This document shows, piece after piece, positions 36,704-49,998 of a DNA stretch of 49,998 nucleotides. The first letter of the stretch is position 1; each line of letters begins with the position of its first letter. The translations under genes and the position numbers were made by a program. The notes below the pieces were generated by a model. The model saw only the letters and a program-made list of their open reading frames with translations, ran no database searches and had not been told where the DNA came from. This DNA comes from Nitrosomonas sp. GTDB taxonomy: Bacteria > Pseudomonadota > Gammaproteobacteria > Burkholderiales > Nitrosomonadaceae. The stretch lies in NCBI GenBank assembly GCA_017994575.1, contig JAGOKN010000001.1:1-49998 (forward strand), given 5' to 3'.

Positions 36704-37973
36704 AATTGAATCCAGCAAATGACTTCTCATCAGCAGTTGATGGCTCAGCATTACTCTTACTCGCCATGATTAATGCGAATTCAGCATCTTGCAAAGTAAA
36801 TGCAGAATCACCAACAGAGGAATTGAAAATGCGATGCAACAAATAGCGCGGATTAGCCGCATGAATATCTTCCGGAACTTTTTGTCCGTTCGCTACATAA
36901 TGCAGCGTCAGCTTTCTGCGAATGACGGCATCCAGAGCAACCCCGAGACTCGCAGCCTCATCGACTTTTGTAATGATGCAACCATAGATATTATTCTTTT
37001 GATAAGCAGAGATCACTTCATCCAGTGTTTTACCATTCGAGGCAGCGCTCAGTATGAGAATGCGCTTCACATCGGTGCCACAATTGCTCAACATCGCAAT
37101 CTGTTGCGCAACCATTTGATCGCGTTGACTCATGCCAACCGTATCAATCAGTACCATATGCTTGTTTCTCAATTCTGATAACGTTAACTGCAAATCTTCC
37201 GTATCTTTGATGGTACGAATCGGAATGCCTAACAATTGCCCATAAATTCTTAATTGCTCATGCCCGCCGATCCGATAGCTATCCGTTGTCAGTAATGCAA
37301 CTTTGTCCGCACCATGGCGAATGACGCAGCGAGCGGCCAATTTAGCCGTTGTCGTTGTTTTTCCAACACCCGTTGGACCAACTAATGCATACACCCCGCC
37401 TTTTTCTATCATTTCATCACTGGAGGCAGTACTTAGATTAAAAGCCAAAGCCGACATAGCCTGTTTAAGGCTCTGCTCATAATCTAAATTAGCTGATAAT
37501 TTATCCACCAACCGACGTGACAACAGCGGACTAAAGCCCGTATCCAACATGGCACGCAATACTTTGACTTTCTCTGGCCTGCGCTGGGTAAAGTTTCCCC
37601 ATGCAACCGTCGCCAATTGATCTTCCAGTGTACTTTTCATGGCTTGTATCTCAGCAATAATGTCATGTGCCAATGCAACCGACATGGCCTCATTCGCCGT
37701 TTTCTTAGCTTCGGTCGGTTCATTAGCTACTGGTAATGCTTTTGCGTAGGAATCTGCCATTTTCTGAGCATGGTTGGCTTCACTCCTAGTCTTGCCAGGC
37801 GCAGATGAAGACGATTGCGCCAAGCCTGACATTTCGGCATCAGCCAATGCCATGATCTCAACGCCATCCTTGGTTTTTTTGTTGGACAATATGACTGCAT
37901 CAACACCCAATTCTTCTTTGATTTGACGTAATGCATCTCTTGAAGTGGAAGCGATATATCTTTTTACTTTCAT
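36696..37973 (-). CDS. flhF: FlhF, SRP-type GTPase for flagellar placement
   Basis: A 425-residue protein: an N-terminal basic segment (MKVKRYIASTSRDALRQIKE), a variable linker, the N domain, and the GTPase domain with GPTGVGKTTTTAKLAA, TTDSYRIGGHEQLRIYG, LIDTVGMSQRD and ITKVDEAASLG. FlhF recruits the first flagellar components to the cell pole in polarly flagellated bacteria. It overlaps flhA by 4 bases (ATGA) and flhG by 8, a tightly coupled operon. Confidence 0.96.
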   Translation of the reverse strand: MKVKRYIASTSRDALRQIKEELGVDAVILSNKKTKDGVEIMALADAEMSGLAQSSSSAPGKTRSEANHAQKMADSYAKALPVANEPTEAKKTANEAMSVALAHDIIAEIQAMKSTLEDQLATVAWGNFTQRRPEKVKVLRAMLDTGFSPLLSRRLVDKLSANLDYEQSLKQAMSALAFNLSTASSDEMIEKGGVYALVGPTGVGKTTTTAKLAARCVIRHGADKVALLTTDSYRIGGHEQLRIYGQLLGIPIRTIKDTEDLQLTLSELRNKHMVLIDTVGMSQRDQMVAQQIAMLSNCGTDVKRILILSAASNGKTLDEVISAYQKNNIYGCIITKVDEAASLGVALDAVIRRKLTLHYVANGQKVPEDIHAANPRYLLHRIFNSSVGDSAFTLQDAEFALIMASKSNAEPSTADEKSFAGFNYD

Positions 37974-40051
37974 TTGTTACCCCCAATCATGGAAGTGATT
38001 TTAATTTTTCTTGAATCTGGAATTTCGGAATGGGAAAGCACTCTTAACTGCGGTAATGCACGGCGCAAAAATTTTGCTAATAAAAAGCGAATAGCGCCGG
38101 GGACTAACAATACAACGGGTAAACCTAACTTCTCTTGCTGCTGCGCTGCATTGCGCGCTTCTTTTAATAATGTATCGGCAAGCCCGGGTTCTATTCCGGT
38201 GCCCTGTGCTCCACCGGTTTGCATGACCTGGATCAGGATATTTTCCAATTCATGATGCAGGCTCATCACTTGTAGTTCTGAATCTGCTGGATAGTATTGT
38301 TCGACGATCGCACGACCCAGCGCACTTCTCACAATTGCGGTCAATTCGGTAGCGTCTTGTGTCTGTGGCGCATGCTCAGTTAACACATCGATGATGGTGC
38401 GCATATCCCGTATGTGCACATTCTCTTCCAGCAAGTTGTGCAATACTTTCTGCACTGTCGATAAAGGCAATAATTTAGGCACCAGATCTTCAATCAGTTT
38501 GGGTGTTTGTGTACCCAGATGATCCAGGAGTTTTTGTAATTCTTGCCGGCCTAATAACTCAGCCGCATGAGAGTGGATCAGATGATTAATATGCGTTGTA
38601 ACCACAGTACTCGCATCGACGACGGTATAGCCACTCGTTTGCGCTTGCTCACGCAAGGCGGTTTCAATCCAGATAGCGGGCAGCCCAAAAGCAGGGTCAG
38701 TAGTCGCCGTTCCCGGCAACTGCATAGTGACTCGCCCCGGATTGATCGCCAGAAACATTCCGGAATAGGATTCTCCTTGCCCGATGACGGAGCCTTTCAG
38801 CGTAATACGATACGCATTGGGGCGTAATTCCAGATTATCCCGGATATGCACCACAGGGGGCAGAAAGCCAATCTCCTGCGCGAATTTCCTACGTATACCG
38901 TTAATCCTTTTTAACAAATCACCCTGCTGGGCTTTATCAACCAATGGAATCAGTCGATACCCCACTTCCAAACCTAACGTATCAATGGGCAGCACATCAT
39001 CCCAACTGGCGTCTATCTTCTCTATGGAAGGCACTTCTGGCGCAATCGATGCAGGCAATTGAGTAACCGTGTGTTTCAGCTTGTAATAAGCAATCGCTCC
39101 TAAAATAGAAGCAATCAACAGGAAGACAAAATTCGGCATGCCGGGAATCAATCCCATAATGCCCAGAATGCCGGCTGTAATCACCAATATTTGAGGTTGA
39201 TTAAACAATTGACCCAATACTTGCTCACCCAAGTCTTCATCCGTAGTTACTCGGCTGACCACCAAGCCTGCTGCCGTTGAAATAATCAACGCAGGAATTT
39301 GTCCGACCAAGCCATCGCCAATGGTCAACATGGTGTAATTCTTGGCTGCCGCGCCTAATTCCAGATCGTGCTGCAATACACCGACAATTAATCCACCGAT
39401 AATGGTGATGAGCATGATCAAAATACCGGCAATTGCGTCACCGCGCACAAATTTACTGGCACCATCCATTGATCCAAAGAAATCAGCTTCCTGAGAAATG
39501 ACTGATCTACGTTTGCGAGCCTCATCCTCGCCAATCAAGCCCGCATTCAAATCCGCATCGATCGCCATTTGCTTGCCGGGCATGGCATCCAAGGTAAAAC
39601 GTGCGCTCACCTCCGCAATACGCCCGGCGCCCTTGGTAATCACCACAAAGTTGATAATCACCAGGATAATAAATACGATCAACCCAACCGCGTAATTGCC
39701 ACCCACCAGAAAGTGACCAAAAGCCTCAATGACCTTACCGGCAGCATCAGGGCCTGTATGTCCTTCCAGCAAAACCACCCGGGTCGAAGCAATATTGAGT
39801 GACAATCTTAATAAGGTAGTAATCAGCAGAACCGTAGGGAACACCGCAAATTCAAGGGGATTCTTGGTGTAGAGACTCACCATCAAAACGATAATGGATA
39901 CCGCGATATTGAAGGTAAACAAAAAATCCAATATGAAAGGTGGTAATGGCAGCACCATCATGGACAGAATCATGATGATCAGTATCGGACCGGCAAGCGC
40001 CCTGAGATGATTCGTGCCTGCTAAAGGCATTGATGTCAATGCGTTACTCAT
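37970..40051 (-). CDS. flhA: Flagellar export gate protein FlhA
   Basis: A 693-residue protein. The N-terminal half has eight predicted membrane segments, with the conserved FHIPEP-type loop (GKQMAIDADLNAGLIGEDEA and RKRRSVISQEADFFGSMDGA). The C-terminal half is the cytoplasmic substrate-docking ring. FlhA couples proton flow to protein export in the flagellar type III system. It is followed by flhF with a 4-base overlap; 68 bases separate it from flhB. Confidence 0.97.
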   Translation of the reverse strand: MSNALTSMPLAGTNHLRALAGPILIIMILSMMVLPLPPFILDFLFTFNIAVSIIVLMVSLYTKNPLEFAVFPTVLLITTLLRLSLNIASTRVVLLEGHTGPDAAGKVIEAFGHFLVGGNYAVGLIVFIILVIINFVVITKGAGRIAEVSARFTLDAMPGKQMAIDADLNAGLIGEDEARKRRSVISQEADFFGSMDGASKFVRGDAIAGILIMLITIIGGLIVGVLQHDLELGAAAKNYTMLTIGDGLVGQIPALIISTAAGLVVSRVTTDEDLGEQVLGQLFNQPQILVITAGILGIMGLIPGMPNFVFLLIASILGAIAYYKLKHTVTQLPASIAPEVPSIEKIDASWDDVLPIDTLGLEVGYRLIPLVDKAQQGDLLKRINGIRRKFAQEIGFLPPVVHIRDNLELRPNAYRITLKGSVIGQGESYSGMFLAINPGRVTMQLPGTATTDPAFGLPAIWIETALREQAQTSGYTVVDASTVVTTHINHLIHSHAAELLGRQELQKLLDHLGTQTPKLIEDLVPKLLPLSTVQKVLHNLLEENVHIRDMRTIIDVLTEHAPQTQDATELTAIVRSALGRAIVEQYYPADSELQVMSLHHELENILIQVMQTGGAQGTGIEPGLADTLLKEARNAAQQQEKLGLPVVLLVPGAIRFLLAKFLRRALPQLRVLSHSEIPDSRKIKITSMIGGNK

Positions 40052-40119
40052 AATATTTATACTTAAAAAGTGTTGCAGACAAAATTAATCAACCAGTCAT
40101 TGTGTGAACTTTTCACTGT

Positions 40120-41262
40120 TTAAACCGCATGTTTTGCTTGATCGAGTCCATCGGGAACCGAAACATCAACAGGTGGTTTCGGAGATTCCCCTCCATACTC
40201 CTTATAGCGCTTCAGTTGGAAGACATAGGCCAGCACTTCAGCAACAGCCGCATAGAGTTTTTCAGGAATCTCGCTCTCCAACTCGACGTGGTAATACAAT
40301 GCCCGCGCCAATGGAGGCGCTTCAAGAATTGGGATTCGATGTTCCTCAGCCACTTCCCGAATACGGGCAGCCAACAGATGCACGCCTTTTGCAACCACCG
40401 TAGGTGCGCGCATGGATTCACTTTTATAGCGTAACGCCACTGCGTAATGCGTCGGATTGGTCACAATCACATCCGCATTTGGAATTTCCGACATCATGCG
40501 GCGCCGTGCAGCCTCACGTTGCAATGCACGAATACGGCCTTTAACCATCGGATCGCCTTCGTTTTCTTTACTCTCTTTACGAATCTCTTCTTTCGTCATG
40601 CGCAATTGTTTCGCATGTTCCCAAATCTGGAATGGCACATCGATTGCCACGATTAATATCATCGAAGCAACAATCAGCAGAAAGCTCATCGACAAAAGAT
40701 CGGCGGTGTGATGGATGCCAGTATCAATTGAAAGAATCAATAATCCCATCACCTCATCTTTGTTCTGCCAAATGACTAATGTGGCTACGCCACCTACTAC
40801 CACAGCCTTGGCGATGGCTTTGGCCAGCTCGACCAGGCTGCGCATAGAAAAAATCCTACCTATGCCTTTAATCGGATTAATACGATTGAAATCCGGAATC
40901 AATGCTTTTGAACTGACCAACCAGCCACTGAGCAGCATAGGTGCACAGAAGGCAACAATAATCAGCAACAAAAGGATTGGCCCCATGGCAATTAAACCCT
41001 CAAACGAGAGCTCGTATAATCGGTTCAGCATTAAATCCGGTTGGAATGCCAGATCACGGTCCAATTGCATGCCTGCTTTCATGATTTGCAGGAGTTTCTC
41101 CATCAGGCCCGGACCCATGAATAATAGACCGGCACCGGCCGCCATCAATAACACAAAGGTAGTCAGCTCTTGAGAACGCACCACCTGCCCCTCTTCCCGC
41201 GCTTTCTGCAGGCGCTGGGACGTGGCCTCTTCCGTACGTTCTAAATCACTTTCTTCAGACAT
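40120..41262 (-). CDS. flhB: Flagellar export switch protein FlhB
   Basis: The 380-residue protein starts MSEESDLERTEEATSQRLQK. Four membrane segments precede the cytoplasmic domain, which has the self-cleaving NPTH motif at residues 269-272 (VTNPTHYAVALRY). Cleavage there switches export from rod/hook to filament substrates. The ATG at 41262 has GGAG six bases upstream; a TTG four codons before it is rejected. First gene of the minus-strand flagellar block. Confidence 0.97.
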   Translation of the reverse strand: MSEESDLERTEEATSQRLQKAREEGQVVRSQELTTFVLLMAAGAGLLFMGPGLMEKLLQIMKAGMQLDRDLAFQPDLMLNRLYELSFEGLIAMGPILLLLIIVAFCAPMLLSGWLVSSKALIPDFNRINPIKGIGRIFSMRSLVELAKAIAKAVVVGGVATLVIWQNKDEVMGLLILSIDTGIHHTADLLSMSFLLIVASMILIVAIDVPFQIWEHAKQLRMTKEEIRKESKENEGDPMVKGRIRALQREAARRRMMSEIPNADVIVTNPTHYAVALRYKSESMRAPTVVAKGVHLLAARIREVAEEHRIPILEAPPLARALYYHVELESEIPEKLYAAVAEVLAYVFQLKRYKEYGGESPKPPVDVSVPDGLDQAKHAV

Positions 41263-41492
41263 GACACACTCCAAATATTTACAATTGAATTATCATGGGT
41301 AACCACTGGGTTCAATGGTGCGAACAATGAAGGAATCATCCCCTTTATTTAAGCAATGCCGGCTAGAAACCTTGACTGTGCTTTCTCTCCGAGGAGAACT
41401 GTAGAATAATCGGATGCACTGAAGGCTCGAAAGCCATGTGCAAAACTGTCGTTTTTCGTCAAACACCCAGCAACCGCTCAAATAGTGAAGAT

Positions 41493-43877
41493 ATGCATAT
41501 TACTGTACGTTTTACTGGCTACTTCTTGATAACAAGCTTATTAATCGCTGCTTTATTCATCATTTCCGCAGGATTGATACTGCGCGGCAGCCTGCCGCAA
41601 TATGATGGAGAAGCACGCTTGGCTGCATTATCCACTCCCGTTTCGGTAGAAAGGGATGCGCTTGGCAGCGTCACCTTTAAAGGGGAAAACCGGTTGGATT
41701 TGGCCATGGCGACGGGCTATGTCCATGCACAAGAGCGTTTTTTTGAAATGGATCTGATGCGCAGACAAGCGGCGGGTGAATTGGCTGAATTATTCGGCAC
41801 CGGTGCAGTAGCCCATGACCGCAAGACACGCCCATTACGCATGCGAGCGCGCGCCTCAGAGGTCTTGAAGCAGCTCCCCAACGAACAACGCCGATTACTT
41901 GACGCTTACCAATTGGGCGTCAATCAAGGTATCCAGGCTTTGACTGTGCGCCCTTTTCCATATTTACTGACCCAAACCCAGCCGATCGCATGGCGCAATG
42001 AAGACAGTATTTTGGTGATCTATGCGATGTTTCTGACGTTGAATGAATCGAGCATCCAGCGCGAACTTGGATTATCCAGCATGCGGGCCGCATTACCCGA
42101 TTCAGCTTTTCAGTTCCTAACAGCCCATGCAGGTCGCTGGGATGCGCCTCTGCTGGATGAATTCTCCGAATTTCCACAAATACCCTCTGCCGCCGACATT
42201 AATCTACAGGCATTGGACGAGCACTTATTCAACGACGACCCTGCAAAAACAGAGCGAATGCCGGGCAGTAACAGTTTTGCGGTTTCTGGCGCACTGACCG
42301 GAGGATCTGCTCTGGTGGCCAATGACATGCATTTAACGTTGCGCGTGCCAAATTTATGGTTCCGCTCGCGCCTCATCTATCCCTCTGACACGGCTGCCGG
42401 ACTTCATGACATTACCGGCATCAGCTTACCCGGCGTGCCTTCCATCATCATCGGTTCAAACCGCCATATCGCATGGAGTTTCACCAATAGTTTTGGCGAT
42501 TTTGCTGATTGGATACGAATCAATCTGGATAAACAAGACAATACGCGCTATCTCAGCTCAACCGGATGGAAATCGCTGGATATCTTTCAGGAAACCATTC
42601 ATGTGCGTAACGCCCCGGATGTCACACTCACCATTTCAGAAACCGAATGGGGTCCCATCGTCGCTGATGATCATGACAAAAACCCATTGGCATTGGCCTG
42701 GACAGCCCTTCGATCGGATGCAATCAATCTCAAACTGATTGAACTGGAATCCGTCCAAACTGCAGAGCAAGCGACAAAAATAGCTCAACAAACAGGCATG
42801 CCAGTACAAAATTTCATCGTCGGCGACCGCCAGGGCAATATCAGTTGGACGCTGGCGGGACGCATCCCTGCCCGCTCCGGCAATTATGATCCGCAACTGC
42901 CCGCCGACTGGACACCAGCAGATACCGGCTGGAAAGGCTGGTTGGATCCGGCTCAATACCCGCTCATCCACAATCCTGCTTCACAGCGGCTGTGGTCTGC
43001 CAATTCTCGCACTGTCTCCGGCAATCAGCTTGAGCTTCTGGGTAATGGCGGCTACGACCTGGGTGCCAGAGCCACACAGATTCGCGATCGCTTGTTCGCA
43101 CTCGATCAGTTCACCGTCGCAGACATGCAAGCCATTCAATTGGATCACCGTGCGCTGTTATTAACCGATTGGTATCAATTGCTACGAGCAACGCTTGAAT
43201 CAGCCGCAGCCAATCCATCCTGGGCTTCCGCGCTGAGTAACGCACTCAAGGACTGGGATGGACAGGCATCGACCGACTCCATTGCTTATCGGACCGTGCG
43301 AACATATCGCTATGAAGTGATGAAGACCGTCTTAAATGGCTTTGCGGCTCAGGTCAGACAAACCGACGCCAGTTTTAAATTACCCCGGTTAAATCAAGCG
43401 GAATTGTTGGTATGGCAATTACTTGAACATAGACCTCAGCATCTGCTGCCAGCAATCTATACTCACTGGGATGATCTGCTAGCGCGTTGCGCTCAGCGCA
43501 TTGCAGAACAATTACAGCAGGAGGGTGGCAAAACTGAACAAAGCTGGGGAGTAATCAACACCGCGCAAATCCGGCATCCGCTCAGCCAGAAATTGCCCAC
43601 ATGGATCGCGCGCTGGCTGGATATGCCCAGTGATCCCTTGCCCGGAGACCAAAATATGCCGCGCGTTCAATCTCCTGATTTTGGTGCATCACAGCGCTCA
43701 GCCGTGTCTCCCGGCCAGGAAGAACATGGCTATCTGGACATGCCGGGCGGACAAAGCGGACATCCGCTTTCGCCTTATTACGGCAGCGGTCACGCCAATT
43801 GGGTCAACGAAAAACCAACCCCTTTTCTTCCAGGAGCGCCAGAAAGACTGATGACACTCATACCACTGGATTCATAG
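41493..43877 (+). CDS. Penicillin acylase family protein
   Basis: A 794-residue Ntn-hydrolase precursor. A membrane/signal segment (YFLITSLLIAALFIISAGLI) leads it to the periplasm. The alpha part contains HAQERFFEMDLMRRQAAGEL; the catalytic Ser is S259 in MPGSNSFAVSG, which becomes the N-terminus of the beta chain after self-cleavage. GNISWTLAGRIPARSG and the C-terminal GQSGHPLSPYYGSGHANW fit the family. Relatives cleave penicillins, acyl-homoserine lactones or other amides; which applies here is unknown. Start ATG 41493; an upstream TTG would add 19 residues before the membrane segment. Confidence 0.9.
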   Translation: MHITVRFTGYFLITSLLIAALFIISAGLILRGSLPQYDGEARLAALSTPVSVERDALGSVTFKGENRLDLAMATGYVHAQERFFEMDLMRRQAAGELAELFGTGAVAHDRKTRPLRMRARASEVLKQLPNEQRRLLDAYQLGVNQGIQALTVRPFPYLLTQTQPIAWRNEDSILVIYAMFLTLNESSIQRELGLSSMRAALPDSAFQFLTAHAGRWDAPLLDEFSEFPQIPSAADINLQALDEHLFNDDPAKTERMPGSNSFAVSGALTGGSALVANDMHLTLRVPNLWFRSRLIYPSDTAAGLHDITGISLPGVPSIIIGSNRHIAWSFTNSFGDFADWIRINLDKQDNTRYLSSTGWKSLDIFQETIHVRNAPDVTLTISETEWGPIVADDHDKNPLALAWTALRSDAINLKLIELESVQTAEQATKIAQQTGMPVQNFIVGDRQGNISWTLAGRIPARSGNYDPQLPADWTPADTGWKGWLDPAQYPLIHNPASQRLWSANSRTVSGNQLELLGNGGYDLGARATQIRDRLFALDQFTVADMQAIQLDHRALLLTDWYQLLRATLESAAANPSWASALSNALKDWDGQASTDSIAYRTVRTYRYEVMKTVLNGFAAQVRQTDASFKLPRLNQAELLVWQLLEHRPQHLLPAIYTHWDDLLARCAQRIAEQLQQEGGKTEQSWGVINTAQIRHPLSQKLPTWIARWLDMPSDPLPGDQNMPRVQSPDFGASQRSAVSPGQEEHGYLDMPGGQSGHPLSPYYGSGHANWVNEKPTPFLPGAPERLMTLIPLDS

Positions 43878-43950
43878 TTGGTTTCGTACCAAAACATTTC
43901 AATTCAAAGCACGTCATTCAGGCATCTCCAACTGATATTGCCAGCATAAA

Positions 43951-43974
43951 GCCGCATGCAGCGCTCCATGCGGC
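43951..43974 (+). terminator. Stem-loop after the penicillin acylase gene
   Basis: GCCGCATG (43951-43958) pairs perfectly with CATGCGGC (43967-43974) around an 8-base loop, about 75 bases after the stop. The T tract is weak (AATTTGT), so termination may be partial. Confidence 0.5.
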
Positions 43975-44134
43975 AATTTGTCACATTGTCATACTTTCAC
44001 GTTATATATATTATTTCCTCCGCTTCTAATCAAACGTAAATTTTAAAAAACTCAAAAAGAAGCCATGAGGATTGATTGATTTAATTTTCAATCCTTCAGT
44101 TTTTCGATTAATCATTATTGTCGGAGCAATTGTC

Positions 44135-44839
44135 ATGAAGTTTCAATTAAAAAAATTAATTATGAGTGGAATTCTGCTGGCCTCCGTCGGCACATCAACA
44201 GCGGTATTGGCTGGTAATGTCACCTTTGCCGATCCTCAACCCTCCACCCCGGGAGTTTGCGACGGTGGAATCAGCTACGAATGGTCAGTCAACATGAGTG
44301 GCGATGATCACGTCGGATTAGTAGGCCATGTCGGCGCCAAAAGCTGGAATGAACCACCGCCAGCCTACGAGCCTCCTTACACCGGCTGGACCCACACTTC
44401 CAATTGGATTGCCCTGGAATTGACAGAACCAACCAAACTGGAAATCAAAGTGGAACGTCAGGAAGGTGTGGCCTTTCAAACCACCAATGGCATGGTTACT
44501 GCCAGAAATATGCTAGTTCCAGCACTCTCCATCTACAGAAACTGGGACAGTACCAGTTGTGAAGATCATCGCTACAACAATGCTGGCAATATTGATTGGT
44601 CAACAGTGCAATACATCGGAAATCAGAAAAATCGCCATGCAAAATCAAGCATCTCTTACGAAGCAAGACTACCTGCAGGTCAATACACCATTGCCATTGG
44701 CGGCAGCCCAAAAGTATTGGAAACCTATCCTGCCAATGATTGTGATGTCGCTGATCCGGTTTGTTATGCCTACACCGGACGCCACGGCTATGAGGTTTAC
44801 CTGAGGACCAGTCCCGTTAAACCGAAAGCAAGTGAGTAA
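44135..44839 (+). CDS. CorA/MopE-like copper-binding surface protein
   Basis: The 234-residue exported protein has signal peptide MKFQLKKLIMSGILLASVGT ending near VLAGN. The body holds SYEWSVNMSGDDHVGLVGHV, PPYTGWTHTSNWIALEL and LPAGQYTIAIGG. In methanotroph MopE and CorA, copper is bound by His residues and a kynurenine made from a Trp two residues before one His; here W85-T-H87 fits that W-x-H pattern, and H145 or H168 could be the second ligand. Four Cys (42, 142, 203, 210) may form disulfides. The next gene is a di-heme peroxidase, as at methanotroph loci. GGAG precedes ATG 44135. Family match is from motif memory, not a search. Confidence 0.65.
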   Translation: MKFQLKKLIMSGILLASVGTSTAVLAGNVTFADPQPSTPGVCDGGISYEWSVNMSGDDHVGLVGHVGAKSWNEPPPAYEPPYTGWTHTSNWIALELTEPTKLEIKVERQEGVAFQTTNGMVTARNMLVPALSIYRNWDSTSCEDHRYNNAGNIDWSTVQYIGNQKNRHAKSSISYEARLPAGQYTIAIGGSPKVLETYPANDCDVADPVCYAYTGRHGYEVYLRTSPVKPKASE

Positions 44840-44847
44840 ATTCCATA

Positions 44848-44879
44848 ATCGTTGTTAAAGCGTTGCGCGTAACAACGAT
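44848..44879 (+). promoter_or_regulatory. 10-base stem-loop after the CorA-like gene
   Basis: ATCGTTGTTA (44848-44857) pairs perfectly with TAACAACGAT (44870-44879) around a 12-base loop, starting eight bases after the stop codon. No T run follows, so it may protect the upstream mRNA or slow readthrough rather than terminate fully. Confidence 0.5.
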
Positions 44880-44882
44880 CCT

Positions 44883-44915
44883 TCAGATCTCCTGCTGCAA
44901 TGGCAGGAGATCTGA
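44883..44915 (+). terminator. 13-base stem-loop between the CorA-like and peroxidase genes
   Basis: TCAGATCTCCTGC (44883-44895) pairs perfectly with GCAGGAGATCTGA (44903-44915) around loop TGCAATG. The stem is very stable but is not followed by a T run. It contains GGAG, yet sits 36 bases before the peroxidase ATG. It may set the expression ratio of the two genes. Confidence 0.55.
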
Positions 44916-44951
44916 TCGACAGACTCAATCCCTTTAAGTCAGTAATACTTC

Positions 44952-46865
44952 ATGAGCATGAACATCCCAACTTTTGGCATTCGTACATTCATCGTTTTCA
45001 TTTGCATCATCCTGCTATCGCCGGCCTCAATGAGTGCTCAGGCGGATGAAGACCCTGCTCGCCCGCCTTCACTGAAAACGATTCCAGTCCCTGAGCCATC
45101 CAACCTCGAACGATTTGTCAAAAACAAGCAGATGGCAATTGTTCTAGGCAAAGCGCTCTTCTGGGATATGCAGGTTGGCAGCGATGGCGTCACTGCCTGT
45201 GCCACTTGTCACTTTAATGCCGGTGCAGACAATCGGTCTAAGAATCAGGTCAATCCTGGATTTAACCGCGTGCATACCGATGGCTCACCCGTGCCGGATC
45301 ATCATTTCGATTTTGGCCCCAATCGACAGCTCGTCATGTCAGATTTTCCCTTGCGGGAGTTATCCAATCCTTTGGACAGAGCATCTTCGCCAATACGCGA
45401 CAGTAATGATGTGGTTTCTTCGCAAGGCGTTTTTTCCATGCTGTTTAAATCAGTCAAACCGCGATCACCGGTCGATCATGTTGAGTTCATAGATAACGAC
45501 GATGGATTCCAGGTCAATCAAATCAATGTCAGGCGAGTGGAGCCACGCAACACCCCATCGGTGATCAATGCGGTTTTCAATTTTCGTAATTTTCTGGATG
45601 GCCGGGCACAAAATGAATTTAATGGCATCAATAACTGGGGAGCGCGCGATCCGGACGCACATGTCTATCGTGCATTATCAGCGACCCGACTGCAACGTGA
45701 GCAGATATTGATCGATAATGCCAGTTTGGCATCGACGGCAGTGGCCCCACCCCTTAACGCCCTGGAAATGTCGGCAGCCAATCGTTCATTCCCTGCTATT
45801 GGCAGAAAATTACTCACGGCCAGGCCACTTGCCCGGCAAAAAATCCATCCCTGGGATAGCGTATTGAGTGAGTACAGTCGCTGGCCGCAGCATGGATTGT
45901 CTGCATCTTACGCAGACCTGGTGCGCGCTGCCTTCCAATCTGAGTGGTGGCAGGCTTCCAAACGTATTCAAGTGTTGGATGACGGCAATACTCAAATAAT
46001 TGATGAGAAACGGCATAGCAATCACGCCAGTCGTGAATTCAGTCAGATGGAATACAATTTCTCGCTGTTTTTCGGACTAGCAACCCAGTTGTATATGGCC
46101 ACACTGGTGGCCGACGACACGCCGTATGATCGATTCATGGAAGGCGACAACACAGCCATCAATGCCGCCGCCATTCGCGGCGTAGATCTGTTCCGCAGCC
46201 AGACGCGGGGGCGTTGCATCAATTGCCATGAAGGCGCGGAATTGACCGGCGCTTCAGTCACCCGAGTCAAAGCCAGCCCTACCCGCATCCGTGATGGCCA
46301 GGCATTTGACCGCGGATATAACAATATCGGTATCCGGCCCAGTGCGGAAGATATTGCACTGGGCGGCAATGATCCTTTCGGTCAGCCACTGTCATACACG
46401 CGCGCAATGACGGCTCCCAATTGCCCGAATAACGAACCCTGCCCCATCGTAGCCGATGGATTCTTCAAAGTACCGGGTTTGCGCAATGTGGCGCTAACCG
46501 CCCCTTATTTTCACAATGGTGGAGTAGTCAAGCTGCGAGATGTATTGGATTTATACAGCCGCGGCGGAAATTTTGCTGAGTTGACTCAACTCGACGGCTC
46601 AGTCATCATGCCGCTCAATGTACTGCTCAATAGCGAGTCGGAAAAAGACGATCTGGAAGCCTGGCTGCACACATTGACCGATGCACGCGTACGCAACCGC
46701 CAAGCACCTTTTGATCATCCGCAAATTTTCATACCCAACGGCCATCCTGGCGATGAAACACAAACAAGCATTGGATTATTCGGCAATGCCGCCGACCGTT
46801 TTATCGAAATCCCCGCCGTAGGCCGCGAAGGTGGAAAACCGCTCAAACGATTTTTAGAAGATTGA
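44952..46865 (+). CDS. Di-heme cytochrome c peroxidase / MauG family, SACCP-like
   Basis: A 637-residue exported protein. The signal region is RTFIVFICIILLSPASMSAQ. Two c-type heme sites are visible: CATCH (C83-H87) and CINCH (C422-H426). GKALFWDMQVGSDGVTACAT and the C-terminal VPGLRNVALTAPYFHNGG are the family hallmarks. It is nearly twice the length of ordinary bacterial CcpA, like the surface-associated peroxidases encoded beside MopE/CorA in methanotrophs. A likely role is oxidation of a Trp in the neighbouring copper protein or peroxide reduction; both are inferences. The start has no clear ribosome-binding site. Confidence 0.88.
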   Translation: MSMNIPTFGIRTFIVFICIILLSPASMSAQADEDPARPPSLKTIPVPEPSNLERFVKNKQMAIVLGKALFWDMQVGSDGVTACATCHFNAGADNRSKNQVNPGFNRVHTDGSPVPDHHFDFGPNRQLVMSDFPLRELSNPLDRASSPIRDSNDVVSSQGVFSMLFKSVKPRSPVDHVEFIDNDDGFQVNQINVRRVEPRNTPSVINAVFNFRNFLDGRAQNEFNGINNWGARDPDAHVYRALSATRLQREQILIDNASLASTAVAPPLNALEMSAANRSFPAIGRKLLTARPLARQKIHPWDSVLSEYSRWPQHGLSASYADLVRAAFQSEWWQASKRIQVLDDGNTQIIDEKRHSNHASREFSQMEYNFSLFFGLATQLYMATLVADDTPYDRFMEGDNTAINAAAIRGVDLFRSQTRGRCINCHEGAELTGASVTRVKASPTRIRDGQAFDRGYNNIGIRPSAEDIALGGNDPFGQPLSYTRAMTAPNCPNNEPCPIVADGFFKVPGLRNVALTAPYFHNGGVVKLRDVLDLYSRGGNFAELTQLDGSVIMPLNVLLNSESEKDDLEAWLHTLTDARVRNRQAPFDHPQIFIPNGHPGDETQTSIGLFGNAADRFIEIPAVGREGGKPLKRFLED

Positions 46866-46937
46866 GCGGAGCGAATATTCTGAGCCTGTTTTTTTAACAC
46901 AGGTGACAACACCGATAGTTTTTATGCGGCCTATTAG

Positions 46938-46975
46938 AACCGATCAAGTCAATGAAATTAGAACGTTGATCGGTT
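46938..46975. terminator. Stem-loop between the peroxidase and RTX-lipase genes
   Basis: AACCGATCAA (46938-46947) pairs perfectly with TTGATCGGTT (46966-46975) around an 18-base loop, followed by TGTTT on the plus strand. Lying between converging genes, it may serve as a bidirectional terminator. Confidence 0.45.
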
Positions 46976-47044
46976 TGTTTCAGCAACAATGCAGACTATT
47001 TTCTTATAAATCTCATCACGGCAATTTCTGCATTCGTCAGATCG

Positions 47045-49998
47045 TTATGCGATAACTTGGAAATCTGCAGCAGACAGTGTTGGATGAGTGCTCGTTCCAA
47101 TCAGTGCAATCTGCACATTTTGCCCACTGACCGAACCATTGGCATCGTAAAAAAGTGCCCCTGTCGCTGGATTGTAGATAATCCTGTCAAGCGTATCTAG
47201 CGCGGATGCCCCGGCATGAAACTTGCCCGCTGTTAGCGCTACACCAGCGGCGGTTCCTGTAATGCCCAATGCGGTGAAGATATCGTCGTCGAGAAGAATC
47301 TTGTCGGTGTTGGTAACAAAATCGGTGATGGTATCGATGTTATTTGTACCTGTTGCCGTATCAAAAATAAATTTATCTGCACCTGCACCACCGGTCAATG
47401 TGTCCTTGCCACCTTTCCCAAGCAGTCGATCATTGCCTGCTGCGCCATTAAGAATATTGATCAAGGCATTCCCAGTGATGATATTGGCTAAACCATTACC
47501 GGTACCATTATTATTCGCTCCCAACGGAGGGAGTTTCAATGTCAGGTTCTCAACATTAGCAGGCAGTGTGTAAGAAATTAAGTAACTGTTAACGTGATCC
47601 TTTGTTCCTGCAAGCGTTCCTGGATTCTCGGTGATAACATCGCTTGCATTTTCGACGACGTAAGTGTCATCGCCTAATCCACCAATTAACGTATCGACGC
47701 CAGAACCACCATCGAGGGTATCATTGCCAGCATCGCCGAACAGTCGATCGACATCACCGTTACCATATAATTTGTCATTTTCAGGACCGCCAAGTAACAG
47801 CTCTTTAGTGTCTCCACCGGTAAGCGTATCACGACCACGCCCACCATAGAATATCTCAATATTATCATCGCCTAGATGATTAATATCCTCTTGGTCTAGA
47901 TCCGTATCTGTAAGTGTATCCCCTCCTTCATCAACAAAAAAATTATCTCCATTTCGCCTTCCCCCCAAAAATACAGTCTGATCTCCTCGTTTATCTAAAT
48001 CATCTAAAATTCTCACCCAACTACCAGCATCGACACTATCAGTGATTTGACGGTAATAATCCATGGAATGATTTTTATCATTTGAAAAAAAAGTTGGATG
48101 CACATCGGGTTCGTTTAGTGTCTGGTCACCTGCAAAACGAATAACATCACCGGGTCTGTTTTGATCGATAAATACATCCCATGTTTGTGGCACGGGATCT
48201 TCGCTTACTTCAATTTGGATTATGCGACTGTCATCCGCATAACTGACTCTGTCCACATTATTTTTTGTAAAATCAGGAGCGGCAAAGGTAATGGCTTGAT
48301 ATTTAGTCCCTGCATGCTCTGGTCGCGCCATATATTCAATGGCCATCGCACCACCAAGACTATGCCCTGTCACGTAAACTTTACCAATATTATTGGTTAA
48401 AACATAATTATCAATCGCACCAATTAATGGCTGCAATAATTGATAGTGATCACGCATACTGCCGCCAGAGCCATCTAATATTGATCCCCATTCATCAGCA
48501 TCTGGATAGATATAGTTGTTAGGATCTAAACTATTAAAACTATCCAAAGGATCATCAGGGTCATTTTCATCATTATCATTTGTGCCGCGAAAAGAAATTA
48601 CAATAGCATCGTTAACACGCGCTACAAAAGCTGCAGCATTACCATTGTGATAAAAGCCGTTGGTCATACCATTATTTAGCAGTGCAATTGTTTCTTCAGA
48701 ATTGAATCCCTCATGATCAATATATGTAAAAGATCTATCAGCTATTGGTATATTCAAATTTAATGGCTGCCAATCTGGATTGATTACTGCAGCATCAGCA
48801 TTAGGACTGACGTCATTAATGAGTCTATTTTCATTTGGTTCCAAGTGATAAGCCGCTTTGGAGAAATCAGCCATGACACGAATCATTCCCACTTTTTCTG
48901 AGCCTATAATCAATTTTTCTTCATCACTAAGTACCAATTGAAATCCATTAACTGCTGAAGTTAGCAATGTACTAGTCACTGCTGCTGTAGCAGCGCTGCT
49001 GACGTTTTCCAAGTAATCAAAACCATCGGTGTAACTCGCTGTAACCGTAATGGTTTTACCAAGATCATTGGCAGCTACCTGATAGTTCTGGCCTACGCCA
49101 ACATTCACTCCTCCAGCTTTCCATTGATATGTGATTGTTCCCACGCCATCGGCATCGTCCAAATCATTAAAAGCAGTTAAGGTTTGCCCTGCACTGGGGT
49201 TGGTAACATTAATATGCACACTTCCCGTGGGTGAATGATTAACTGATCCATTTTGAGAAACTTTCAAATCAATAAATTGAACATTCTCGACATTGGTAAG
49301 CTGGGCTGTATAGCCACGATACTCAGATGGTGCTGTATTAAGTCCGGTAACCTGTACCACACCATTTAAATTGGTTACACTGAAATCACTGCTATTACCA
49401 AAGAAAACGGCTGTATCCGTACCTGCACCGCCATCTATCAAATCATTTCCGCCAGCGCCATCAATAGTCTCGTTATCAGCAGTACCTACAAATTGATATG
49501 AAAAAAAGTTATATCCGCTCAGCATAACTTTATTAATCGTGGGTGTTACTGTTTCAACCGAATCCAGAAACTGTACACGCTCCGTATTGATCAGCTTAGC
49601 CGTGTAACCGTTATAATCAGACGGCGCTGTATTGAGTCCAGTGATACGTACCGCGCCCTCCAAGTTGACGATTCTGAAATCACTGCGGTTGCCAAAGAAA
49701 ACGGCTGTATCCGTACCTGCACCGCCATCTATCAAATCATTTCCGCCAGCACCATCAATAGTCTCGTTATCAGCAGTACCTACAAATTGATATGAAAAAA
49801 AGTTATATCCGCTCAGCATAACTTTATTAATCGTGGGTGTTACTGTTTCAACCGAATCCAAAAACTGTACGCGCTCCGTATTGATCAGCTTAGCCGTGTA
49901 ACCGTTATAATCAGACGGCGCTGTATTGAGTCCAGTGATACGTACCGCGCCCTCCAAGTTGACGATTCTGAAATCACTGCGGTTGCCAAAGAAAACGG
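47045..49998 (-). CDS. RTX protein with class 3 lipase domain (5' end outside window)
   Basis: The frame is open to the window edge, so the N-terminus is missing; about 984 residues are visible. From the edge come tandem 98-residue repeats (GTADNETIDGAGGNDLIDGG... to LINTERVQFLDS), a short Ig-like domain (TITYQWKAGGVNVGVGQNYQ), and a class 3 lipase domain with nucleophile Ser in VTGHSLGGAM, Asp in SEDPVP and His in KNHSMDYY. RTX nonapeptides (GDAGNDTLDGGSGVDTLIGG) follow, and the end is AADFQVIA, a typical type I secretion tail. Probably a secreted lipase or esterase. No secretion genes are in the window. Confidence 0.9.
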   Translation of the reverse strand, partial: VFFGNRSDFRIVNLEGAVRITGLNTAPSDYNGYTAKLINTERVQFLDSVETVTPTINKVMLSGYNFFSYQFVGTADNETIDGAGGNDLIDGGAGTDTAVFFGNRSDFRIVNLEGAVRITGLNTAPSDYNGYTAKLINTERVQFLDSVETVTPTINKVMLSGYNFFSYQFVGTADNETIDGAGGNDLIDGGAGTDTAVFFGNSSDFSVTNLNGVVQVTGLNTAPSEYRGYTAQLTNVENVQFIDLKVSQNGSVNHSPTGSVHINVTNPSAGQTLTAFNDLDDADGVGTITYQWKAGGVNVGVGQNYQVAANDLGKTITVTASYTDGFDYLENVSSAATAAVTSTLLTSAVNGFQLVLSDEEKLIIGSEKVGMIRVMADFSKAAYHLEPNENRLINDVSPNADAAVINPDWQPLNLNIPIADRSFTYIDHEGFNSEETIALLNNGMTNGFYHNGNAAAFVARVNDAIVISFRGTNDNDENDPDDPLDSFNSLDPNNYIYPDADEWGSILDGSGGSMRDHYQLLQPLIGAIDNYVLTNNIGKVYVTGHSLGGAMAIEYMARPEHAGTKYQAITFAAPDFTKNNVDRVSYADDSRIIQIEVSEDPVPQTWDVFIDQNRPGDVIRFAGDQTLNEPDVHPTFFSNDKNHSMDYYRQITDSVDAGSWVRILDDLDKRGDQTVFLGGRRNGDNFFVDEGGDTLTDTDLDQEDINHLGDDNIEIFYGGRGRDTLTGGDTKELLLGGPENDKLYGNGDVDRLFGDAGNDTLDGGSGVDTLIGGLGDDTYVVENASDVITENPGTLAGTKDHVNSYLISYTLPANVENLTLKLPPLGANNNGTGNGLANIITGNALINILNGAAGNDRLLGKGGKDTLTGGAGADKFIFDTATGTNNIDTITDFVTNTDKILLDDDIFTALGITGTAAGVALTAGKFHAGASALDTLDRIIYNPATGALFYDANGSVSGQNVQIALIGTSTHPTLSAADFQVIA
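49400..49998. repeat. 294-bp tandem repeats in the RTX-lipase gene
   Basis: The segment from about 49400 to 49693 recurs almost base for base from 49694 to 49987, with only scattered changes. The unit, 294 bp (98 codons), also matches more weakly to the left of 49400. The array continues past the window edge. Confidence 0.85.

Follow-up and report, generated by a model that had tools for sequence, protein, structure and literature searches.

The described systems closest to the one presented here, CorA/CorB and MopE/SACCP, are known as pairs from methanotrophs (PMC3912023 and PMC3621798, in their available sections). The window analyzed here, a stretch of 49,998 nucleotides from Nitrosomonas sp. 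(assembly GCA_017994575.1, contig JAGOKN010000001.1; contig C135 of genome G000 in our numbering), carries a gene for a corA/mopE-like protein of 234 residues directly followed by a gene for a di-heme enzyme of 637 residues. With a probability of roughly two in three, the CorA/MopE-like protein binds copper through H87, H145, and W85, the latter being converted into kynurenine by the partner enzyme, and captures scarce copper for ammonia monooxygenase. This reading is built on the gene pair, its conservation, a predicted fold match, an aligned triad of site residues, a Tyr at a ligand position, and an upstream palindrome, all of them directly seen or computed. From there, the following course may be proposed: the cell would export the corA-like protein by virtue of its signal-like N-terminus, the di-heme enzyme of the MauG superfamily would oxidize W85 to kynurenine, one copper ion would be held between H87, H145, and Kyn85, the palindrome would mediate induction of the pair when copper is low, and the loaded protein would supply scarce copper to ammonia monooxygenase.

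Ammonia monooxygenase needs copper, and to our knowledge the acquisition of this metal by nitrifiers at low supply is largely an open question. The pair provides a concrete and testable copper system in Nitrosomonas, with a multi-copy form in comammox Nitrospira, in which a copper ligand may arise by post-translational oxidation of tryptophan. It is likely that nitrifiers gather copper by a mechanism so far credited to methanotrophs, since Nitrosomonas has the pair and related clusters occur in Nitrospira holding ammonia-oxidation genes. The first-pass annotation of this DNA had located the pair outside methanotrophs and had considered that the host might be an ammonia oxidizer; the former is confirmed and the latter is likely, because the host is a Nitrosomonas, as positions 37134-47509 of the window share 94% DNA identity over about 10 kb with a contig of Nitrosomonas sp. 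RBC050. The ammonia monooxygenase of the window genome is represented by a fragment of AmoC only, on contig C57, and its 86%-complete assembly yielded neither AmoA nor AmoB.

The predicted copper protein and its di-heme partner

A total of 136 proteins match the window copper protein at E ≤ 0.01, one of them (P0001) being 99% identical to it, so that the W-x-H observation is not due to chance; residue counts refer to the best 120 of these 136 homologs (Table 1). In the alignment, W85-x-H87 falls on W62-x-H64 in CorA and, in MopE, on the GWTH whose Trp and His are by count W130 and H132; a second conserved His, H145, which was absent from the first-pass annotation, corresponds to CorA H114 with modest certainty at this column, so the Trp-x-His and the second His of the CorA/MopE copper site are all present in the window protein. 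Its predicted fold is CorA/MopE-like. The interpretation first put forward for this locus, a kynurenine-type copper protein with a partner enzyme, is supported, because the predicted fold is of the expected kind, the W-x-H motif falls on the copper site, and the orthologs keep the Trp in all but one case. When the copper protein was compared one-to-one with PDB sequences, no real match emerged and CorA was reached by profiles only, and the NCBIfam search returned no match at E ≤ 1 in a library not confirmed to include the MbnP model TIGR04052. Judging from its sequence, the window protein is a divergent CorA/MopE relative; a Nitrospira relative (L038:6914-7636) scores 33.2 bits against the CorA/MopE family PF18252. 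The frames, the W85-T-H87 motif (44387-44395), and the CATCH and CINCH sites all lie where they had been annotated. The description of the 234-residue protein as exported agrees with a signal-like N-terminus, judged by eye, export itself being presumed.

The enzyme matches CCP_MauG (PF03150) at 61 bits, above the cut-off of 25.6, and contains two c-type heme motifs, as do MauG and the di-heme tryptophan oxidases. Moreover, the Met ligand of the high-potential heme of classical cytochrome c peroxidase is replaced in the window enzyme by a Tyr, Y535, as in MauG-type oxidases, and in an alignment of 27 enzymes (E < 1e-90 in the loci, with near-duplicates dropped) all 25 rows that extend to this site have Tyr. 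Y535 falls at MauG position 294, which we take to be the Tyr ligand; the roles presumed for Tyr294 and Trp93 of MauG and for Trp94 and Met275 of cytochrome c peroxidase agree with the alignment positions. The enzyme, named earlier as an SACCP-like di-heme peroxidase, is of the right superfamily and has both heme sites, and it lacks the inter-heme Trp. Structure prediction of the enzyme from a 22-row alignment gave a predicted local distance difference test (pLDDT) value of 43.6, a model too poor for use.

The two window genes share a strand, with 112 bases between them, and the placement of the di-heme gene directly after the copper-protein gene, noted in the first pass for the window, recurs in all nine Nitrosomonas-type loci (the window plus L005-L010, L013, and L014, with the window and L005 as well as L008 and L009 being close kin), in which the enzyme frame starts 4-236 bases after the corA-like frame on the same strand. 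The pair stays together in Nitrosomonas, and the flanking genes vary by lineage. The hairpins predicted between the two window genes may hold the amount of di-heme enzyme below that of the copper protein. In L013 (10135-10506), a gene for a small metal-binding protein (PF16785 SMBP, 95 bits) directly follows the pair, and in the window the pair is adjoined by a gene on the opposite strand (47045-49957) whose long RTX-repeat product has a class 3 lipase domain and whose frame is still open where the window ends.

Table 1. Features of the corA/mopE-like locus, in window positions.
Feature	Position	Strand	Basis
19-base-pair palindrome ATGCGGCAATTTGTCACAT, candidate operator of the corA pair (consensus ATGYGRCA-N3-TGYCRCAT)	43968..43986	.	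alignment of 6 closely related Nitrosomonas upstream regions
A/T-rich block ATATATTATTT, possible -10 region of the promoter (putative role)	44003..44016	+	common to 6/6 aligned upstream regions
corA/mopE-like protein, 234 residues, signal-like N-terminus	44135..44839	+	open reading frame (ORF)
W85 codon, predicted kynurenine precursor (CorA W62)	44387..44389	+	alignment; kept in 119/120 homologs
H87 codon, predicted copper ligand (CorA H64)	44393..44395	+	alignment; kept in 119/120 homologs
H145 codon, predicted second copper ligand (CorA H114)	44567..44569	+	alignment, modest column certainty; kept in 118/119 homologs with a residue there
Two strong hairpins (44848-44879, 44883-44915) between the corA-like and di-heme genes	44848..44915	+	predicted fold of 44837-44951, -42.3 kcal/mol
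Di-heme MauG/MbnH/SACCP-type enzyme, 637 residues, predicted Trp oxidase	44952..46865	+	PF03150 61 bits; NCBIfam best TIGR04039 MbnH 99.8 bits (cut-off 362.85)
Heme c site 1, CATCH (residues 83-87)	45198..45212	+	sequence motif
L215 codon, at the inter-heme Trp place (1eb7 position 94)	45594..45596	+	alignments
Heme c site 2, CINCH (residues 422-426)	46215..46229	+	sequence motif
Y535 codon, at the place of 1eb7 Met 275 and MauG position 294	46554..46556	+	alignments; Tyr in 25/25 rows reaching the position

Distribution of the family and copper monooxygenases

A scan of one genome per species yielded 56 loci, namely, 8 of Nitrosomonas type, 8 from methanotrophs, 2 of Binatia type (one of them titled Deltaproteobacteria), 13 from Nitrospira, and 25 from Verrucomicrobia; GWTHTS was one of the three scan patterns, and therefore the motif conservation among these loci is partly built in. 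In both Binatia-type loci, the enzyme gene follows the corA-like gene within 4 bases and on the same strand; in two of the eight methanotroph loci it does so within 452-624 bases. In Nitrospira, a relative of the enzyme occurs somewhere in 12 of the 13 stretches. A member of the enzyme superfamily is present in all 51 carrier genomes (whole-genome search), and a strong relative (E < 1e-90) is found elsewhere in 6 of the 21 Verrucomicrobia genomes. The pair thus marks some nitrifiers and methanotrophs, in a patchy manner. Gene transfer between methanotrophs and Nitrosomonas was hinted at by a quick tree with branch support of only 84-86 and is not claimed.

In Verrucomicrobia the CorA-like domain is put to a different use, and one frame often contains three or four copies in a row: in L026, L027, L028, L031, L041, L043, and L044, frames of about 1,300-1,560 residues hold three or four tandem CorA-like GWTHT motifs, and second CorA-like genes lacking the W-T-H motif adjoin the copies at L021:7949-8929, L022:7312-8367, and L039:7937-8992. 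Five Nitrospira clusters (L038, L046, L050, L052, and L058) contain one to three CorA copies each, together with two different di-heme enzymes, one of the CITCH/CINCH type and one of the CSNCH type (the latter cut in L046); two Nitrospira CorA copies that were scanned bear VPLPA/PEP-CTERM-like ends scoring under the cut-offs. Furthermore, a small exported-looking protein (L012:7793-8188, L038:1863-2324, L050:841-1302, and others), with no family match in the copies scanned, has its gene between those for CorA and the enzyme in Methyloglobulus, and close to the clusters in Nitrospira; it occurs in 10 of 11 CorA-carrying Nitrospira genomes, in none of 10 chosen non-carrying ones, and in none of the nine Nitrosomonas-type carriers.

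Genes for one or more copper-monooxygenase subunits are present in 8 of the 9 Nitrosomonas-type genomes (some as fragments; in G064 only below the cut-off, and none in G062), in all 8 methanotroph genomes, and in all 11 Nitrospira carrier genomes. Across 79 genomes of the genus Nitrospira, CorA was matched strongly (E ≤ 1e-40, a cut of our own; the tool's cut is E ≤ 0.001) in 13 of 49 amoA-positive versus 2 of 30 amoA-negative genomes (Fisher p = 0.038, kinship ignored), the two strong amoA-negative exceptions, G104 and G108, having AmoC matches. When two weak matches (E ≤ 0.001) are added, the counts become 14/49 versus 3/30 (p = 0.088, kinship likewise ignored). The link between CorA and amoA in this genus is therefore weak, because p shifts with the cut and kinship is not considered.

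The upstream palindrome and its candidate regulon

A palindrome precedes the corA-like gene of the window (Table 1). A related 19-base pattern, with at most one mismatch, gives 109 matches in the eight Nitrosomonas-type genomes and none with the reversed control, and one site lies just upstream of the corA-like gene in all eight; three of these genomes (G066, G069, and G070) were not used in writing the pattern. In the same way, a 21-base palindrome (at most one mismatch) occurs in 55 of 61 Nitrosomonas genomes and its control in one. The window alone has two matches, a number equaled or exceeded in 41 of 100 shuffles and thus explicable by chance, so that the palindrome is credible through the multi-genome counts and not through the window by itself. 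With at most one mismatch, it was not found in the loci of methanotrophs, Nitrospira, Verrucomicrobia, or Binatia type. Further sites were recorded at G000:C21:4541, C39:129, C39:2554, C52:237, and C107:4958 and in loci L061-L109.

Behind these sites lie a gene row with CopC in G069 (86.3 bits), CtaG/Cox11 in G065 (170.5 bits), thioredoxin-like proteins (another one lies within a row of boxed genes), a second di-heme CCP_MauG protein in G000 (27.1 bits, cut-off 25.6), a receptor-plug gene, and a row of MbtH plus thioesterase. CopC and Cox11 are copper-handling families. Boxes are also found before genes with no evident link to copper (by look, a RIO-type kinase, a JAB-type peptidase, an AI-2E-type transporter, and an amidohydrolase), and some have no ORF start nearby. 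The best reading is that the palindrome marks a putative copper-supply regulon, and it offers a point of entry for studying how a lack of copper might be perceived in Nitrosomonas. The palindrome stands before an MbtH-like gene at L076:1587-2696 and L104:2389-2898 (the latter by look only), with a thioesterase following in one genome; a peptide metallophore under palindrome control is conceivable.

Some of the exported proteins near the boxes would begin, after the cleavage site, with His, as a rough pattern indicates for 20 of 88 signal-like ORFs of L061-L106, as counted with a regular expression instead of a signal-peptide predictor over loci that partly overlap and ORFs that do not all adjoin a box. 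An exported family whose mature proteins probably start with His (HTxI...HGCG...FPDG; L062:1752-2531, L063:1749-2477, L083:582-1340, L098:578-1342, L105:4669-5424, and others) has no Pfam or NCBIfam match among the members scanned, and its proteins are candidate copper proteins. A wider picture can be drawn tentatively, with odds slightly short of even, in which kynurenine-copper capture, instead of being peculiar to methanotrophs, would be shared by the three aerobic guilds with copper monooxygenases, namely, methane oxidizers, Nitrosomonas, and comammox Nitrospira, and would form, in Nitrosomonas, one arm of a so far undescribed, palindrome-marked copper-scarcity regulon with CopC, CtaG/Cox11, thioredoxin-like proteins, a further MauG-like di-heme protein, and the N-terminal-His exported family.

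Competing explanations and comparison with known systems

Several observations weigh against the capture of copper through a kynurenine made by the partner enzyme, and each of them has to be set beside the explanation that it would favor. The inter-heme Trp of MauG-type oxidases is replaced by L215 in the window enzyme, which weakens a simple analogy with MauG; other Nitrosomonas enzymes carry Leu, Asn, or Ser at this position, the two Methylococcaceae sequences (L011 and L012) carry Tyr and Phe, and, wherever their alignment extends this far, the enzymes of Nitrospira, Binatia type, and L019 have kept the Trp. This loss in one enzyme clade and retention in another represents a natural experiment on charge movement. 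Among 37 sampled Nitrosomonas genomes, just 4 carry the corA-like gene, no close same-strand partner enzyme was found in 6 of the 8 methanotroph loci, and none of the 25 Verrucomicrobia loci has such an enzyme in its stretch. Moreover, according to the available sections of PMC3912023, a partner-enzyme mutant of Methylomicrobium alcaliphilum still grew on methane, and grew faster. The missing Trp, the Verrucomicrobia members without an adjacent enzyme, and this mutant would suit a real CorA-like fold and His/Trp copper site with W85 unmodified, the di-heme neighbor being a co-expressed hydrogen-peroxide reductase or electron-transfer protein. Such an arrangement seems unlikely, although it fares best among the alternatives, given the Tyr in place of the Met ligand at MauG position 294, the tight pairing in the Nitrosomonas-type (9/9) and Binatia-type (2/2) loci, and the fact that kynurenine has been reported for CorA and MopE alike, the two relatives with solved structures (PMC3912023, available sections).

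None of three copper-monooxygenase subunit genes was found in the 21 Verrucomicrobia carrier genomes (three Verrucomicrobia loci being left out), which likewise speaks against provision of copper to such an enzyme, nor in the two Binatia-type carriers; these two counts rule out that the family is tied to copper monooxygenases everywhere. A secreted copper binder devoted to copper safety or to redox work at the cell surface, and not to acquisition, would fit the window genes flanking the pair, which are of penicillin-amidase and RTX lipase types with no transporter, and the several copies per Nitrospira cluster, whose VPLPA/PEP-CTERM-like ends, below cut-offs, hint at surface display. Nevertheless, the common palindrome ties the pair to CopC, CtaG/Cox11, and the receptor-plug gene, and CorA and MopE are described as copper-repressed in the available part of PMC3912023, so this role is quite improbable.

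As for the enzyme family, MbnH (TIGR04039), which reportedly makes kynurenine in MbnP, is the best NCBIfam match, and its 99.8 bits might be taken to mean that the pair belongs to MbnP/MbnH, the methanobactin partners, and not to CorA/MopE with SACCP. This score lies far below the cut-off of 362.85, just as the score against MauG TIGR03791 (76.7 bits) falls under its cut-off of 443.85, two shortfalls that count against the enzyme's proposed role; on these profile scores, the enzyme is in the right superfamily and in neither of the two curated families. Since the copper protein has no NCBIfam match (with the reservation on the MbnP model given above) and matches CorA/MopE in fold and triad, an MbnP/MbnH assignment is very improbable.

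Finally, the similarity of the copper protein itself has its weak points: PF18252 gives 18.4 bits, under the cut-off of 27, so that the profile search suggested in the first pass did reach CorA but not this cut-off; the MopE profile match taken alone is not significant (E 0.34); and Foldseek scores are modest for CorA (TM score 0.41-0.51, root-mean-square deviation 6-7) and place MopE tenth, after bacterial toxin beta-sandwich domains. A copper-free beta-sandwich surface domain (adhesin or matrix protein) with a structural W-x-H can hardly be entertained, as the VIA-align Z values of CorA and MopE are 4-5 units above those of the rival beta-sandwich rows and the Trp and the two His residues almost never vary.

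As regards previous work, mopE/corA genes were sought in PMC6189053 by BLAST with CorA and MopE as queries, according to its available sections, an approach that would probably not reach the Nitrosomonas branch. The available text of PMC13003922, on the copper needs of ammonia oxidizers, mentions neither CorA nor MopE, and that of PMC4831470 has M. capsulatus as its subject. In the open-access literature, judged by title and abstract, no report of a CorA/MopE-type pair in nitrifiers was found among the matches listed.

The reading of the window pair as a kynurenine-type copper-capture system can thus be placed among its relatives. It resembles CorA/CorB of Methylomicrobium album BG8 (PDB 4bz4; PMC3912023, in part) in predicted fold, copper-site triad, signal-like N-terminus, and a di-heme gene directly downstream, but differs in its low identity (19% over 146 residues), its Nitrosomonas host, and a palindrome also found before other Nitrosomonas genes; for the window pair, kynurenine and copper are predicted and repression by copper is presumed. 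Compared with MopE/SACCP of Methylococcus capsulatus Bath (PDB 2vov), identity is 13%, MopE is longer, and the enzyme is likened to SACCP through the superfamily match, not through SACCP's own sequence. MbnP/MbnH, found in methanobactin operons and beyond (TIGR04039, TIGR04052; PMC3621798, in part), likewise joins an exported partner to a MauG-like di-heme enzyme, from which the window pair is set apart by the profile results given above. With MauG, which acts in tryptophan tryptophylquinone maturation, the window enzyme shares two c-hemes and a Tyr at position 294, but it is longer and lacks the inter-heme Trp, whereas with the Pseudomonas di-heme cytochrome c peroxidase 1eb7 it shares the di-heme architecture and PF03150, with Tyr535 where 1eb7 has Met at position 275. 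CorA/CorB and MopE/SACCP in methanotrophs and the parallel pair MbnP/MbnH are therefore known, and what appears to be new is a divergent variant in Nitrosomonas, with related clusters in Nitrospira.

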